A stretch of 64,000 bases of DNA from positions 1-64,000 of the forward strand of contig NZ_AODH01000009.1 of NCBI RefSeq assembly GCF_000525915.1, read 5' to 3'. The position numbers and the translations under genes were made by a program. Of this stretch, positions 171 to 64,000 are shown in pieces. The notes under the pieces are model-generated. The model did not search any database, had not been told where the DNA came from, and was given only the letters and a program-made list of their open reading frames with translations. The stretch's first letter is position 1, and each line of letters opens with the position of its first letter. The DNA is from Brochothrix campestris FSL F6-1037. GTDB taxonomy: Bacteria > Bacillota > Bacilli > Lactobacillales > Listeriaceae.

Positions 171-384
171 TTCAGATTATAGACAAAGTCTAAACAGACT
201 TCATTTTCTTTGTAATGCTATTACAGTGACTTTGGCTACAAAATGACTTGACTGAAAAGAAACGGTGTTATATCCTCTCGTTCTAGTAGGCACGACGAGC
301 GAGTGACGGTGCGCGTACCGATAGTACGTAATCCCGAGCGAGCAAGTCGTAACGACCTAGTACAGCGTTTATCTTCAGTCTCAA
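171..384 (-). repeat. Intergenic repeat element, copy 1 (full length)
   Basis: This 214-bp element matches positions 39898-40110. The last 133 bases (252-384) align without gaps to 39978-40110 with about 9 differences. Its ends, TTCAGATTATAGACAAAGTC and (reversed) TTGAGACTGAAGATAAACGC, agree at about 14 of 20 positions, so they form imperfect terminal inverted repeats. An internal inverted repeat (TAGACAAAGTC near 181 and GACTTTGGCTA near 228) is also shared. It contains no ORF and lies between the tcyP stop codon and its terminator. A MITE- or REP-like element or a structured 3'-UTR RNA would fit. Strand is given as that of the transcript it lies in. Confidence 0.8.
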
Positions 385-11989: not shown

Positions 11990-12056
11990 AAACAGTAAGT
12001 AGCGTACCTCAATGTGCGCAAATCATATATTTTAAGGATAGGTGGTCACAACACAC

Positions 12057-12827
12057 ATGAAACTGTTCACACGCTTTATTAAAAGTATTTACTCACCCGA
12101 TGACATTGCCTCTTATCGCACCGTCAAAACCGGTGGCTTCATCGCACAAATCATTTTAATTGCCTGTCTCGCCTTTATTCCGACGGCGTACTTAGTAGCG
12201 ACACAGTCCACTGCTCTCTTAGCTGATGTCACTGATGTCGTGAAAAATGATTTCCCCGATTTCACCATCAAAGATGGCACCTTACAGGCAACGAGTGACA
12301 AAACCATTATGAAATCGTTAAATCAAGGTGTTCTTGGCTTTGCCACTTCTGATGACAACGCTGAATCCAGTTTATCGCAACTTACTCCTGTCACACAAAT
12401 TGGTGTTGGCTTTTTCAAAGAAGGACTTGTCGTTGAGTATTTTGGAACCTCTCAAACGATTCCCTATTCAATGATCAACTTGGAAAGCAAGGCTGACTTA
12501 GTTAAGATGCTCGACTCGACAAAAGAGTCTGCCACCTATGTTCTCACAATGATTTTCATCTTCATGTTCGTGTTATTACTCGTGATGACAACGATTAAAG
12601 TCTTCTTTTACGGCTTGTTTGCCTTCTTGCTTGGAAAATCTGGTCGTAAAAACATCACCTATTTGGCAGCTGTAAAAATTTCAGCTTTCAGTTGGAGCTT
12701 GATGACGGTTTTCACCTTCATTACTGATATAGCATCTATTTCAATCTCCTACTTATCGGAGTTCAACATCCTGATTACCATTGTGATTATGTTCCTTGCT
12801 GTAAAACGCATCCCAATGGAGAAATAA
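12057..12827 (+). CDS. DUF1189-family integral membrane protein
   Basis: A protein of about 256 residues. One membrane segment lies near residues 29-48, an extracellular region of about 100 residues follows (DITDVVKN-type start, FPDFTIKDGTL), and three or four membrane segments lie at the C terminus (LTMIFIFMFVLLLVMTTIKVFF). This matches the DUF1189 arrangement next to aspS in Listeria; function is unknown. ATG at 12057 is preferred because AGGTGG lies 11 bases upstream, although GTG at 12042 is in frame. Its 3' UTR contains the tandem repeat array. Confidence 0.8.
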   Translation: MKLFTRFIKSIYSPDDIASYRTVKTGGFIAQIILIACLAFIPTAYLVATQSTALLADVTDVVKNDFPDFTIKDGTLQATSDKTIMKSLNQGVLGFATSDDNAESSLSQLTPVTQIGVGFFKEGLVVEYFGTSQTIPYSMINLESKADLVKMLDSTKESATYVLTMIFIFMFVLLLVMTTIKVFFYGLFAFLLGKSGRKNITYLAAVKISAFSWSLMTVFTFITDIASISISYLSEFNILITIVIMFLAVKRIPMEK

Positions 12828-13331
12828 AAGCGATATCTGCTCGTTCAACAGCGTATAAATTGGAAAGATCGTGCTTGCGATTATTTACCATCGCAAGAAG
12901 CGAGCTTGAAATTTACTAGCTGTTAGCTGATTGAGCTAGACTAATAAAAGCGATATCTGCTCGTTCAACAGCGTATAAATTGGAAAGGTCGTGCTTGCGA
13001 TTATTTACCATGCAAGAAGCGAGCTTGAAATTTACTAGCTGTTAGCTGATTGAGCTAGACTAATAAAAGCGATAGCTAACCGGTAGAAGCAAACAGCTTG
13101 GAAGAAAAATGTGAGCGATTATTTACCGTCGCAATCATTTTTCTGAAAGATGAAAGCTTCTGGTTGATTGAGCTAGACTAATAAAAGCGATATCTGCTCG
13201 TTCAACTTCGAAGATATTGGAATGGAAAAGCGTAGCGACTATTTACCGTCGCTGCTTTTTTAATGAAATATCACAGAAGTTAGCTGATTGAGCTAGACTA
13301 ATAAAAGCGATAGCTAACCGATAAAAACAAA
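12825..13331 (+). repeat. Tandem array of about 119-bp structured repeats
   Basis: Four complete units start at 12825, 12945, 13064 and 13182, and a truncated fifth at 13302 (periods 120, 119, 118, 120). Each starts TAAAAGCGATA and ends TTGAGCTAGACTAA. The centre of each has the hairpin GCGAY-TATTTACC-RTCGC. The flanking arms differ between units but stay complementary: CTTGCGAT/ATCGCAAG in unit 1, AAAAATG/TCATTTTT in unit 3, AAAAGC/GCTTTT in unit 4. An outer stem does the same (AGAAGC/GCTTCT in unit 3, GAAGATATT-type arm with AAATATC in unit 4). No ORF spans it. It occupies the DUF1189 3' UTR up to the terminator. Confidence 0.9.
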
Positions 13332-13370
13332 AAAGTCCGTTGTGCAAATCAAATGCACAGCGGACTTTTT
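13329..13370. terminator. Bidirectional terminator between the array and aspS
   Basis: AAAAAGTCCG...TGTGCA pairs with TGCACA...CGGACTTTTT around AATCAAA, with A and T runs on both sides. It ends both the DUF1189/array transcript and the convergent hisS-aspS transcript. Confidence 0.9.
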
Positions 13371-13371
13371 A

Positions 13372-15144
13372 TTATTCTGCTTTTTCTGTAATATCTAGCT
13401 GCAACTCAGCCAATTGTTTCGCACTTACAGCTGAAGGAGCCTGTGTCATCGGATCACTTGCACGACCTGTTTTCGGGAAGGCAATCGTATCACGAATGTT
13501 ATCACGACCTGTCAATAACATCACCACGCGGTCAAGTCCTAAGGCAATCCCACCGTGAGGCGGTGTACCGTATTCAAAGGCATCCATCAAGAAACCAAAT
13601 TGAGCACGGGCTTCTTCTTCAGTAAAACCAAGCGCTTTGAACATTTTTGCTTGGATGGCACTGTCATAAATACGCAACGATCCTCCACCAAGTTCATAAC
13701 CATTTAAAACGACATCATAGGCTTGCGCATAAACAGCTTCTGGTTTTGTATCAAGCAATGCCACATCTTCTTCGTTTGGCATTGTAAACGGATGATGCGC
13801 TGCTACAAAACGGTTTTCTTCTTCATCGTATTCAAACAATGGCCAGTTCACAACCCAAAGGAAGGCTAACTCATCTTCGTTAATTAAGTTCATTTCTTTC
13901 GCGACTTTGCCACGTAATGCGCCTAATGATGCAGCTACAACACTTGCTTTATCAGCGACAAAGACAAACATATCACCTACATGACCGTCTAGTTTAGCAA
14001 TTAACTCCGCTTGTTTCGTAGCATCGAAGAATTTAGCGATTGGTCCTTTTAATTCCCCTTCTTCTACTTTTACCCAAGCAAGACCTTTAGAGCCATAAAT
14101 CTTCACAAATTCACCCATCGCATCGATTTGTTTACGTGAATATGCTGCGCCACCACCGACAATGTTAATCGCCTTAACTTGGCCGCCCATTTCAATCGCT
14201 TGTGTGAACACTTTAAAGTCACTCTCTGCCACAACATCAGCCACATCGACCAATTCTAACCCAAAACGAACATCTGGTTTGTCGCTGCCGTAACGCGCCA
14301 TTGCTTCATCGTATTCCATGCGCGGAAACGGTGTCGGGATATCGATCCCTTTAGCTTCTTTAACGACTGCTTTTAACAACGATTCTGTCATTGTTTGAAT
14401 TTCTTCAGCACTTTGGAAACTTGTCTCAATATCAATTTGAGTAAACTCAGGTTGACGATCACCACGTAAATCTTCGTCACGGAAACAACGGACAATTTGG
14501 TAATACTTATCGAAACCAGCAGCCATTAACAATTGTTTGTTCAATTGCGGTGACTGTGGCAACGCATAAAAATGACCAGGATGTACACGGCTTGGTACAA
14601 GATAATCACGTGCCCCTTCTGGTGTTGATTTATTCAACATCGGTGTTTCGATGTCTAAGAAGCCTAAATCATCTAACGTATTACGCACTGCGCGCTTAAT
14701 ATCATGACGTTTACGAATAATATTTGACATTTCCGGACGACGCAAGTCCAAGTAACGGTATTTTAAACGGAGGTCATCACTGACATCAACGCCATCTTCA
14801 ATGTAAAAAGGTGGTGTTTTAGCTGCATTCAACACTTCGATTGATGAAGCCAACACTTCAACCGCACCGGTTTTAATCTTCGTATTCACTTGCGCTGCGG
14901 CGCGTTCAACGACCTTACCTTTGATGGTAATGACATATTCACCACGCACATTTTCAGCAATCGCTAACGCTTCTTTTGATTCGTCAGGATTAAAGACGAT
15001 TTGAACAGCACCCTCACGGTCACGTAAATCGATAAAAATTAAGCCACCTAAATCACGACGTTTTTGTACCCAACCACTTAAAGTGACTTCTTGACCAACA
15101 AAGTCAGTTGTTACTAATCCGCAATACGTTGTACGTTTATCCAT
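13372..15144 (-). CDS. aspS: Aspartyl-tRNA synthetase
   Basis: A 590-residue class II synthetase that charges tRNA-Asp. An N-terminal OB-fold anticodon-binding domain ([15 protein letters not shown] near 20) is followed by motif 2 ([18 protein letters not shown] near 216), the bacterial GAD insertion domain (about 290-420) and motif 3 ([16 protein letters not shown] near 531). It follows hisS with stop and start codons overlapping (TAATG), so translation is coupled, and it shares the T-box upstream of hisS. Confidence 0.96.
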
Positions 15145-16439: not shown

Positions 16440-16735
16440 ACCTCCTTTATAATTTTAAGTACAAAAAAAGAAAACAAACGTCACCCTGCTCTAACGAACA
16501 AGGGACGAGTGTTTTCTTATCACCCGTGGTACCACCCTAATTGAAAACACACTGTGTTTTCCACTCTCAGTTAACGCCTGATAACGTTTCACTCTACTGG
16601 CAAGCGTTCGAATGAAAACCTCCTAAGTGTCTTTCAAACAGGGTTTGGTGAAAAACCTTACAGCCACGGGTTTTTCTCTCTGAAACCAAACGATCTCTTT
16701 TACTTTTCTTAATCAACGGTATCTCTATGTTTAAT
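16440..16735 (-). ncRNA. T-box leader of hisS-aspS
   Basis: On the minus strand the T-box sequence AGGGTGGTACCACG (16538-16525) is followed by a terminator stem (CGTCCCT with AGGGTGACG, closed by GAAAACA/TGTTTTC) and seven T ending near 16466. Upstream are an AGAGAG motif near 16682 and the candidate specifier region GACAC (16631-16627), which holds overlapping GAC (Asp) and CAC (His) codons. Uncharged tRNA should promote readthrough into hisS-aspS. The antiterminator bulge reads TGGT; its last base could pair with A73 or wobble with G73 but not with C73, which favours tRNA-Asp. Confidence 0.9.
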
Positions 16736-16822: not shown

Positions 16823-18112
16823 TTAATAGACGTTCGTCGTTAACGGATCAATTGTTTCGACGCTCGTTTTTATCTCCTGTAAAAAACGTCCCGCAACGAG
16901 GCCATCTAACACACGATGATCAATTGAGAGGCAGAGGTTCACCATGTCCCGAATCGCAATCATGCCATCTTTCACTACCGGCCGTTTAACGATTGACTCC
17001 ACTTGTAAAATCGCGGCCTGTGGATGATTGATGATGCCCATCGACTGGACTGAACCGAATGATCCCGTCGAGTTAACCGTGAACGTCCCACCAGTCATTT
17101 CGTTAGCACTGAGCTTACCTGTCCGTACTTTTTGCGCCAACGTATTAATCTGTTTACCGATGCCTTTCACACTCAACTCATCTGCCTGTTGAATTACAGG
17201 TACGAACAAGGCGTCATCCGTTGCTACCGCAATCGATAAGTTAATCGCTTGGCGTTGGATAATCGCTTCATCAGTCCACGTACTGTTTAACTCAGGGTAT
17301 TTTTTCAACGCCTGTGCCACCGCCTTCACAAAGAAAGCAAAATAACTAAGACTAAATCCTTCTTTGGCTTTGAACTCATCTTTGAGGCGATTACGTGCCA
17401 CAACGAGCGCAGTAGCATCGACTTCGACCATCACCCACGCATGAGGAATTTGCTGGACGCTTTCAACCATGTGTTTAGCAATGGCCTTACGAACGGGTGT
17501 TAACGGCACTGTTTTATCGCCTGATAATATCGCTGCCGTATGAACTTGCGTCGGTGGTGGCGTCGGCGCAACACGTGGTGCAACGGTTGCTTCAGCTCCA
17601 CTTGCTGGTGCCACTTCCTTCTGAGGTGGTGCTGTCAATACGTCCTTGCGGGTAATTCGGCCGCCCTTACCAGTACCGCTTAAGTGGCTTAAATCGAGAC
17701 CACGTTCATGTGCGAGACGGCGTACAACTGGTGAATAACGGCCACGCTCTAACGGATTTATTTTAGCAACGTTCGGTTGTTTTTCTGCAACGTTCGGTTG
17801 TTTTTCTGCAACGTTCGGTTGTTTTTCTGCAACGTTCGGTTGTTTTTCCATCATTGCATTGTTGCTTGTTGGTGCGGTCTCAATCGTACAAATTACCTCG
17901 TTGATAGGCACTGCCACGTCGATAGCGGCCACTAAGTCTTTAATGACGCCTGTAAATGACGAGGGTATTTCGGCTGTCACTTTATCGGTAATCACTTCTG
18001 CAATCGGATCATACTCATTGACTTGGTCACCCGGTTGTACGAGCCAGGCCGTTAATGTACCTTCGGTAACACTCTCACCTAATTGAGGCATTGTGATGTT
18101 TTCAATTGCCAT
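16823..18112 (-). CDS. bkdB: Branched-chain 2-oxo acid dehydrogenase E2 (dihydrolipoyl acyltransferase)
   Basis: A 429-residue E2 component. The N-terminal lipoyl domain carries the lipoylated Lys in EVITDKVTAEIPS near 44. A peripheral-subunit-binding domain (YSPVVRRLAHERGLDLSHLSGTGKGGRI split around 127-155) and a C-terminal catalytic domain with the active-site SIDHRVLDG near 398 follow. The linker after the lipoyl domain has a four-fold EKQPNVA repeat encoded by perfect 21-bp units. It transfers branched acyl groups to CoA in the BCKDH complex. It is the last gene of the bcd-bkdB operon. Confidence 0.94.
   Translation of the reverse strand: MAIENITMPQLGESVTEGTLTAWLVQPGDQVNEYDPIAEVITDKVTAEIPSSFTGVIKDLVAAIDVAVPINEVICTIETAPTSNNAMMEKQPNVAEKQPNVAEKQPNVAEKQPNVAKINPLERGRYSPVVRRLAHERGLDLSHLSGTGKGGRITRKDVLTAPPQKEVAPASGAEATVAPRVAPTPPPTQVHTAAILSGDKTVPLTPVRKAIAKHMVESVQQIPHAWVMVEVDATALVVARNRLKDEFKAKEGFSLSYFAFFVKAVAQALKKYPELNSTWTDEAIIQRQAINLSIAVATDDALFVPVIQQADELSVKGIGKQINTLAQKVRTGKLSANEMTGGTFTVNSTGSFGSVQSMGIINHPQAAILQVESIVKRPVVKDGMIAIRDMVNLCLSIDHRVLDGLVAGRFLQEIKTSVETIDPLTTNVY
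17766..17849 (-). repeat. 21-bp tandem repeat inside bkdB
   Basis: Four copies of a 21-bp unit (plus strand GCAACGTTCGGTTGTTTTTC plus T) encode four EKQPNVA heptapeptides in the E2 linker. The unit length keeps the frame whatever the copy number, so changes would only alter linker length. Confidence 0.92.
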
Positions 18113-39100: not shown

Positions 39101-39156
39101 TCGTTAATTCGTTAATTCGTTAATTCGTTAATTCGTTAATTCGTTAATTCGTTAAT
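39101..39156. repeat. 8-bp microsatellite between ruvA and ruvB
   Basis: Seven perfect copies of TCGTTAAT (minus strand ATTAACGA) fill 39101-39156. The first copy on the minus strand supplies the last ruvA codons and its TAA stop at 39144; the others fill the ruvA-ruvB gap. Changes in copy number would alter the distance between the genes, not the proteins. Confidence 0.95.
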
Positions 39157-39897: not shown

Positions 39898-40110
39898 TTC
39901 AGATTGTAGACAAAGTCGAATTAAACTGCTTTTTCTGTGAAAAGTGGTCAAGCGACTTTGTCTACAAGATGATCAGGCTGAATAGAAACGCTGTTATATC
40001 CTCTCGTTCTAGTAGGCACGACGAGCGAGTGACGGTGCGCGTATTGATGGTACGTAATCCCAAGCGAGCAAGTCGTAACGATTTAGAACAGCGTTTATCT
40101 TCAGTCTCAA
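39898..40110 (-). repeat. Intergenic repeat element, copy 2 (full length)
   Basis: This 213-bp element is the second full copy of the one at 171-384. It starts TTCAGATTGTAGACAAAGTC and ends TTTATCTTCAGTCTCAA. It contains a perfect 15-bp inverted repeat (TTGTAGACAAAGTCG at about 39904 and its complement at about 39953-39967) and a perfect 10-bp pair AAACGCTGTT/AACAGCGTTT enclosing the inner 90 bp. It sits between the ABC ATPase stop codon and its terminator in the same orientation relative to transcription as copy 1. It has no ORF. Confidence 0.85.
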
Positions 40111-51615: not shown

Positions 51616-51986
51616 GCCTGACACCCCTCTCATTATTTTATTAGTAACGCAATTATGTTCAAATTTAAAGTGAGGCACACCTCAAATTGAGATGTGCTCA
51701 CTGGTCATTCTTTTAGTTAATAGCTGCTAACACAATGTTAGTCTTTTATAACAGTAAGTTTTATCGCTTGTCACTTTATTGTATCGCTACTTTTTTCATC
51801 GAAGTGCTTGCTACTTAACGTTTACCCTTTTAGTTGCCTTTTGCCTTTTGCAAGTTGTATTCACTTTCTATTCTCCAGTTACTCCAACTAAAGGCTGTCT
51901 AAATTTCGCTGTTTCGTTCCGACAAAAAGCGTCGAACCCTCAACACCTCCAATTTAGTTGCCTTTTGCAAGTTGTATTCACTTTCT
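51616..51986 (-). other. ilvC-leuA spacer with duplicated segment and hairpin
   Basis: This 371-bp gap inside the operon holds no convincing gene. A segment of 41 bp (51829-51869) recurs as a 34-bp form at 51953-51986, next to the ilvC stop; they differ by one 7-bp duplication (CCTTTTG). Nearer leuA a strong hairpin (GTGAG...CTCAC, 51670-51701, with CTCAA/TTGAG inside) is followed by TTTAAATTT on the minus strand and could be a weak internal terminator. A smaller stem CTAACA/TGTTAG lies near 51729-51744. Confidence 0.7.
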
Positions 51987-62088: not shown

Positions 62089-62130
62089 CAAATTGTAGAC
62101 AAAGTCTAAAGAGACTTCATTTTTCTTCTA
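62087..62130 (-). repeat. Fragment of the intergenic repeat element (copy 3)
   Basis: TTCAAATTGTAGACAAAGTC followed by TAAAGAGACTTCATTTT matches the first 40 or so bases of copy 1 and abuts the ileS terminator, as in copies 1 and 2. The rest of the element is absent; the ileS stop codon follows within 20 bp. Confidence 0.75.
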
Positions 62131-62147
62131 AACAGTTGCTTTCACTT

Positions 62148-64000
62148 TTAAGCTTCTAAGTCAATGTCGCCATAATGTTCAGTCACAATGTCAGCACAGT
62201 GAGCACATAAGGTTGGATGAGCAGCGTTTGAGCCAACGTCTGTTTTCACGACACGGCAACGTTCACATGTGTCACCGTCGGCAGCAGTGACAGCAACAGC
62301 AACTGTTTCTGTTGCAATCGCATCAGCTGGCGCGTTATCTTTACCCACAATTAACTCAAAGTCACTAACGATTAACAATTGTTTCACATCGTTGTTAATT
62401 GACTTGATTAAGTCAACCGTTGCTTGATCAGCATAGATTGAAACTTTCGCCATCAATGATTTCCCGATTAATTTCGCATTACGCGCTTCTTCTAATGCTT
62501 TTTGAACAGCGTCACGGATAGTCATGAACTGTGTCCATTTTTCAAGTAAGGCTGTTTGTTCTGCTGTCTCAGTCGCAAATTCAAAATCAGTTAAGTGAAC
62601 ACTCTTAGCTGTTTCAAACTCAAGATAAGACCAAATTTCATCAGCCGTATGTGGTAATAACGGTGCTAATAATTGTGTTAAACCTTTCGCAATCGTGTAG
62701 AATACTGTTTGCATACTACGACGAGCCTCACTCGCTGCCGCTTCAATGTAAACAACATCTTTGGCGAAGTCGAGGTAGAAGTTACTTAAGTCAGTCGTTA
62801 CAAAGTTGTTAACCGCACGATAAACAGTTGAAAACTCATATTTATTGTACGCTTCATCAATTTGATGTGCTAGGCGGTTATATGTTGTTAACATGTATTG
62901 ATCAGCTTCTGACAATTTGTCATACGCCACCATATCTGTTGTTGGATTAAAGTCTGATACATTTCCTAATAAGAAACGGAAAGTATTACGGATTTTACGG
63001 TAGACATCTGAAACTTGTTTTAAAATATCATCTGAAATACGCACATCCGCTTGGTAATCTGATGAGGATACCCATAAACGTAAAATATCGGCACCCATTT
63101 GGTTCATGATTTTTTGAGGATCAACTGTATTACCAATTGATTTACTCATTTTACGCCCTTTACCATCTAAGACCATCCCGTGGCTTAAGACACCTTTATA
63201 AGGTGATTTCCCTGTGATGGCAACACTCGTTGTAATTGACGAGTTGAACCAGCCACGGTATTGATCTGATCCTTCGAAATACAAGTCAGCTGGACGGCTC
63301 AAGTAATCACGTTCTTCAAGCACACCTTGGTGAGATGAACCTGAATCGAACCAAACGTCCATAATATCAGTCTCTTTTGTAAACGTTCCGTTCGGGCTTG
63401 ATGGATGTGTAAAACCTGCTGGTAATAAATCTTTCGCTTCACGGGCAAACCAAACGTTTGAACCATGTTCACGCACTAATTCAACAAGATGAGCAATTGT
63501 TTCTTTCGTAATAATTGCATCGCCATTTTCACCATAAAAGATTGGTAACGGTACACCCCACGCACGTTGACGTGAAATAACCCAATCGCCACGGTCACGA
63601 ACCATGTTGTGTAAACGTTGTTCTCCCCAAGCTGGTGTCCATTCAACCGTTGCAATCGCATCAAGAATATTCTCGCGGAACGCATCAATTGATGCAAACC
63701 ATTGTGGTGTCGCACGGTAAATAACAGGTTTCTTCGTACGCCAGTCATGTGGGTAACTATGTGAAAAGAAGTCCAGTTTCAAGAGACGACCTTTTTCGGT
63801 TAATAAATCAGTAATCATTGGATTCGCTTTATCATAATAGATACCTTCAAATCCTGGTGCTTCATCAGTATAAATACCGCGACCATCCACTGGTGAAATA
63901 ACTTCTAATTTATAAGCTAATGAGGCAAAGTAATCGTCTTCCCCGTGTCCTGGTGCTGTATGAACACAACCTGAACCAGCTTCTAGCGTTACATGGTCAC
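62148..64000 (-). CDS. ileS: Isoleucyl-tRNA synthetase (5' part outside the window)
   Basis: About 617 C-terminal residues of a class I synthetase; the frame is open to the window edge. It has [12 protein letters not shown] in the editing domain, [14 protein letters not shown], the signature [12 protein letters not shown] and a C-terminal zinc finger [10 protein letters not shown]...LCAHCAD. The anticodon-binding helical domain lies between. The upstream T-box often seen with ileS would be outside the window. Confidence 0.95.

Follow-up and report, generated by a model that had tools for sequence, protein, structure and literature searches.

Tandem array downstream of a DUF1189 gene

The window, i.e. 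the whole stretch of 64,000 nucleotides from Brochothrix campestris FSL F6-1037 that was analyzed here, carries a DUF1189 gene on the forward strand (12042..12827; Pfam PF06691, E-value 1.3e-39) with a tandem array immediately downstream. A sequence-only reading had placed four full units and a partial fifth in the 3' UTR of this gene, which was confirmed by the PF06691 match and by Tandem Repeats Finder (12823-13312, period 120, 4.1 copies, score 409). The array comprises four units of ~119 nt and the 5' stub of a fifth unit, and it extends from the DUF1189 stop codon to an intrinsic terminator. The TAA stop codon itself falls within the AATAAAAG start motif of unit 1.

All parts of the array are on the forward strand. 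Unit 1 (12830..12949), a type a hairpin module of 120 nt including its linker, scores 123.6 bits with R1. Unit 2 (12950..13068; 119 nt, 112.3 bits with the covariance model) is also of type a and almost identical to unit 1, with a closing stem that has lost one base (ACCAT-GC). Units 3 and 4 diverge from these in their arms: unit 3 (13069..13186; type b, 118 nt, 90.6 bits) retains the same internal loops, and unit 4 (13187..13306; 120 nt, 108.8 bits) belongs to type d. The terminal 5' stub, designated S (13307 to ~13331), is type b-like. The terminator, as read from the sequence, spans ~13330..13372 and has an A-tract and a T-tract that make it usable from both sides, with aspS located opposite.

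Searches against Rfam 15 returned nothing credible on the array and none on five relatives; a known Rfam family was therefore rejected as an explanation. The sole match in the window above the gathering score was a T-box leader elsewhere (16498-16725, reverse strand, 144.5 bits), ahead of the hisS-aspS genes.

Structure and covariation of the module

The sequence-only reading had proposed folding each unit as a check, and each of the four folds as a single long hairpin (shuffle z-scores of -4.2, -3.0, -2.8 and -4.9, respectively). The module is an imperfect hairpin of ~107-120 nt whose anatomy is shared by all genera. The outer helix P1 is followed by a 5' bulge around (C)CGUU, then by P2, an internal loop and P3, and next by a UUGGA/UGAAA loop, P4/P5 and an apical loop; on the 3' side come an (A)GCUAGA-like sequence and then a linker ending in AAAAG. 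The UUGGA/UGAAA loop is mostly constant while both helices adjoining it vary. The constant loop and closing GCGAY/RTCGC described earlier hold inside the DUF1189 array, apart from the base lost in the closing stem of unit 2, but not across the family, where the loop and the closing stem vary (TATTTTCC, TATTTCCC and others).

In a MAFFT alignment of 28 copies, 90.1% of paired cells pair. The covariation score reaches 0.498, compared with 0.168 in shuffles, and none of 500 shuffles attained the observed value; sliding the partners gave scores of 0.06-0.16. RNAalifold alone recovered 22 of the pairs from this alignment, 16 of them with double changes. The initial impression that the arms and an outer stem change in step was thus borne out, and so was the suggestion of selection on an RNA or cruciform structure, since covariation persists in a larger alignment of 150 copies (score 0.717 versus 0.234; 91.2% of paired cells pair; double changes in 30 of 31 pairs), which was fitted to the model and is hence biased towards it. 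Selection on the secondary structure is strongly supported.

G-U plus U-G combinations outnumber A-C plus C-A combinations by 240 to 51 in the 150 copies and by 30 to 8 in the unfitted alignment, and folding therefore matters on the strand that follows the gene. Such an excess fits folding of that strand equally well as RNA or as single-stranded DNA. A DNA-level site with no RNA role, either a cruciform or an attC-like single-strand recombination site, would thus accommodate both the excess and the arrangement of discrete modules in a hairpin array. We consider such a site very unlikely: no genes lie between the units of the DUF1189 array, where gene cassettes would be expected between attC-like hairpins, and the sense orientation of the arrays past stop codons (see below) suggests a link to transcription.

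Copy number and phyletic distribution

The host genome (127 contigs totalling 2.37 Mb, about 85% complete) contains about a hundred copies, which led us to reject a unique local RNA gene. Using blastn, 30 places were found in this genome, and a covariance model, which the sequence-only reading had also proposed and which we built from 28 copies, yielded 102 matches at E <= 1e-3. Many contig ends (e.g. those of C12, C17, C42 and C9) have arrays and repeats of another kind, termed AC (see below), within a few hundred bases, and the true copy number is therefore probably above this count.

A second copy in the window is a single unit with a short stub (51870..51981, reverse strand, 72.1 bits with R2), which begins a few nucleotides past the stop codon of a gene that reads like ilvC and itself lies ahead of a leuA-like gene. 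A solo stub S without a full unit (62126..62148, reverse strand) lies directly past a stop codon (GCTTAAAAGTGAAAGCAACTGTTTAGAA) and is followed by a terminator. The window also contains an array of seven perfect copies of the 8-mer TCGTTAAT (39101-39156) between ruvA-like and ruvB-like genes; it abuts the listed start of the ruvB-like open reading frame, and a change in its copy number would alter the ruvA/ruvB spacing. Four perfect 21-bp repeats (17766-17848) are found within a gene on the reverse strand (16823-18112), an E2-type acyltransferase by sequence, in which they encode a repeated QPNVAEK linker between the acyltransferase domains.

The sister genome has at least 47 copies. Copies were found in every sampled genome of genus g2, and the covariance model found none in the sampled genomes of genus g3. 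With a second model, built from 150 copies, matches were obtained in 47 of the 396 genomes sampled at the order level and in 39 of the 399 sampled from the class Bacilli, where they belong to many families. Distant members of the family also form tandem arrays with a period near 120. When 299 genomes were drawn from the phylum, only the host genome and one Bacilli genome matched, with no match in the approximately 290 phylum members outside Bacilli; this nearly matchless scan doubles as a false-positive control. Overall, the distribution over Bacilli is patchy, even inside families. Units of the window and of genus g2 had no match in sequenced phages or plasmids. One weak match of the family (27 bits) lies on an Anoxybacillus amylolyticus plasmid, and no viral contig matched the single pattern searched. 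Carriage by sequenced phages or plasmids was rejected.

Position relative to genes

When AC-carried arrays are left out, 29 of 40 arrays in the host genome and 15 of 22 in the sister genome begin no more than 20 nt from a same-strand stop codon, compared with 5.7% when intergenic points and strands in the window are picked at random; gene ends in this test are those of the longest open frames rather than the output of a trained gene finder. The corresponding binomial P values (~1e-27 and ~1e-14) treat copies as independent, and the effect size is therefore the safer number. An intrinsic terminator lies within 170 nt downstream of 26 of 39 arrays in the host genome and 7 of 22 in the sister genome, versus 3% in shuffled sequence. 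In genus g2, nearly every array preceded by a sense gene starts 2-12 nt past the stop codon of that gene, and many other arrays are located in front of divergent genes, not behind stop codons. In three related genomes (L252, L253 and L257), units are found between a riboswitch-like terminator and a metN-like gene, i.e. in a 5' UTR.

Sense orientation and a site between stop codon and terminator are consistent with a 3' UTR element that serves the host, its hairpins protecting the upstream mRNA from 3' decay or recruiting an RNA-binding protein, and its dispersal being a by-product. Conservation over a class of a structure with constant internal loops points in the same direction, as does the finding that bcr3-bearing transcripts of Bacillus cereus have longer half-lives, which is a correlation only (PMC3446304). 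Nevertheless, the orthologous DUF1189 gene of the sister genome (70% protein identity) lacks the array, its 3' UTR being short and plain and containing a terminator but no unit; the distribution is patchy even within families, with no copies in the sampled genomes of genus g3; and copies also occur ahead of divergent genes. A host-serving element is thus improbable as the primary explanation, and the pattern suits a spreading element better than an RNA dedicated to the DUF1189 gene.

Array architecture and modules that appear to come and go

Arrays take the form S(XS)n, where the 25-nt stub repeat S alternates with bodies X of ~95 nt. Most arrays of the host genome finish, as the DUF1189 array does, with a ~25-nt 5' stub (TAAAAGYGAAATCAACCGNTTAGAA and variants) ahead of the terminator, and a pattern search identified further stubs without a full unit, several of them directly past a stop codon. 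Pairs of units from the same array with body identity below 70% have junctions that are 88% identical (17 pairs), whereas pairs from different arrays with bodies at least 85% identical have junctions that are 77% identical (209 pairs). In the host genome, junctions are array-specific and bodies are common to different arrays; this pattern is weak in the sister genome. Furthermore, the sequence flanking the stop codon reappears in the last linker, for example as AACATTAAAAG in L058 and AGATTAAAAG in L107. The shared suffix amounts to 7.55 versus 5.17 nt in the host genome (0 of 5000 permutations) and 4.74 versus 3.08 nt in the sister genome (4 of 5000); no such repeat of the flank in the linker was seen in genus g2.

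The AC repeat is a separate family in the host genome, with the ends AGACTGAAGATAAACG and TTTCTATTCAGTCT. Its left end occurs ~47 times and its right end ~46 times in this genome, frequently just past the stem of a terminator and frequently where a contig ends. As a carrier of units it has the inverted-repeat ends AGACTGAA/TTCAGTCT. Its empty form (CTACTAGAACGAGAGGATATAAC) is represented by six aligned copies, and the window contains two AC elements without a unit, both on the reverse strand: one at 250..380, with inverted-repeat ends (AGACTGAAG...TTCAGTC), and a second one at 39976..40106. In the filled form, a module of 107-109 nt of either of two different unit types occupies exactly the same point, at which 2-4 nt are repeated. 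These empty and filled forms are the cleanest evidence that the unit is a discrete module. They may reflect a few old events that were later amplified together with the AC repeat, and they could record loss as well as gain. Overall, it appears that the repeats are gained and lost as discrete modules.

Another account is that an element inserted once was multiplied only by replication slippage or unequal exchange, which would make the repeated linkers and stubs breakpoints of duplication rather than target duplications. The partial last copy, the S repeats and the near identity of units 1 and 2 fit this account, and a solo S fits recombinational loss. In its simple form, however, slippage yields near-identical units, which is at odds with divergent bodies that share junctions within an array while near-identical bodies elsewhere have different ones, and it does not readily explain a single AC site that has an empty form and two module types. 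We regard slippage alone as a possible but rather unlikely explanation.

Proposed origin of the array

We conclude that the DUF1189 array probably arose by local expansion of a modular, non-coding repeat that is dispersed in Bacilli, is structure-dependent and BOX/MITE-like, and has spread through 3' UTRs. Judging from the positions of the copies, a module would mostly lodge just past a stop codon in the sense direction and would then be transcribed as a 3' UTR ahead of the terminator. Some machinery may read the hairpin as RNA or as single-stranded DNA of this strand and insert modules; an array would grow when a new module is inserted where a resident one begins, and it would lose units through recombination between its 25-nt S repeats, with a solo S as the remnant. 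Once transcribed, the array might act on the host mRNA mainly as a structural barrier at its 3' end, and by analogy with bcr3 of B. cereus, itself a correlation only, it could plausibly influence mRNA stability as a side effect. A more far-reaching version, with class-wide mobile structured modules that use an RNA or single-strand intermediate and undescribed machinery targeting the site just past stop codons, and with site duplication giving rise to CRISPR-like arrays of the S(XS)n form in 3' UTRs, appears unlikely to us.

Searches for Y1 transposase and reverse transcriptase families revealed no autonomous partner. The Y1 transposase (PF01797) has no match in the sister genome or in any of the sampled copy-rich g2 genomes, and no reverse transcriptase occurs in the sister genome or in two g2 genomes. 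Thus, a Y1 transposase as the current driver and a reverse transcriptase as a required present partner are not supported; these absences exclude both as partners needed at present, not as past ones.

If the proposed origin is right, a large, old and structurally conserved family of Bacilli repeats, with approximately a hundred copies in some genomes, is missing from the curated RNA library. It would provide a test case for the multiplication of non-coding hairpins and for the reasons why they settle past stop codons, with implications for mRNA stability and for the annotation of 3' UTRs in these bacteria.

Comparison with known repeats

The sequence-only reading knew of no described class with this unit. 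This agrees with the lack of a matching Rfam family and with literature searches, largely of openly accessible papers, in which no description of the repeat was found; an earlier description is possible. With respect to MITEs, the unit is one imperfect hairpin with no separate terminal repeats beyond P1, and inverted-repeat ends were found only on the AC carrier. Possible signs of target-site duplication are the flanking sequence in linkers of the host and sister genomes, not of g2, and the 2-4 nt at the AC insertion point.

REP and BIME palindromes are repeated extragenic hairpins that form tandem clusters, often behind genes, and in these respects they resemble the present repeat. REPs are tied to Y1-type transposases, whereas the sister and g2 genomes have no such (RAYT) transposase. 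Moreover, REPs measure 20-40 bp (PMC3733652), unlike the 107-120-nt unit described here.

The bcr1-bcr3 repeats of the B. cereus group are likewise short, hairpin-forming, MITE-like and often transcribed in UTRs (PMC3446304); bcr1 is set apart by its description as specific to the B. cereus group, which is given in the title of a reference in that paper. Efa-1, Bhal-1 and Sta-1, from a 2008 survey of low-GC Firmicutes, are also families of intergenic stem-loops, but they were defined species by species, at 74-163 bp, without a structure shared across a class, and the text of the survey nowhere uses the word "tandem" (PMC2267715). The present family was compared with these three by their descriptions and may be identical with one of them.

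BOX elements of Streptococcus pneumoniae and S. suis, which have an A-Bn-C organization and are thought to be MITE-like, share with our family a dispersed intergenic location, RNA-like stem-loops, modularity and a variable number of tandem inner units (PMC3049150). Some copies of the present family lie between A and C modules, and most tandem arrays have neither A nor C. By its description, BOX is built as boxA-boxBn-boxC, whereas here a complete hairpin of 107-120 nt is repeated, its internal loops being constant; arrays begin at stop codons, and members occur in many Bacilli families. Compared by description, the nearest kinds are BOX, the bcr repeats and the stem-loop families of the 2008 survey, and we do not regard the repeat as categorically new.
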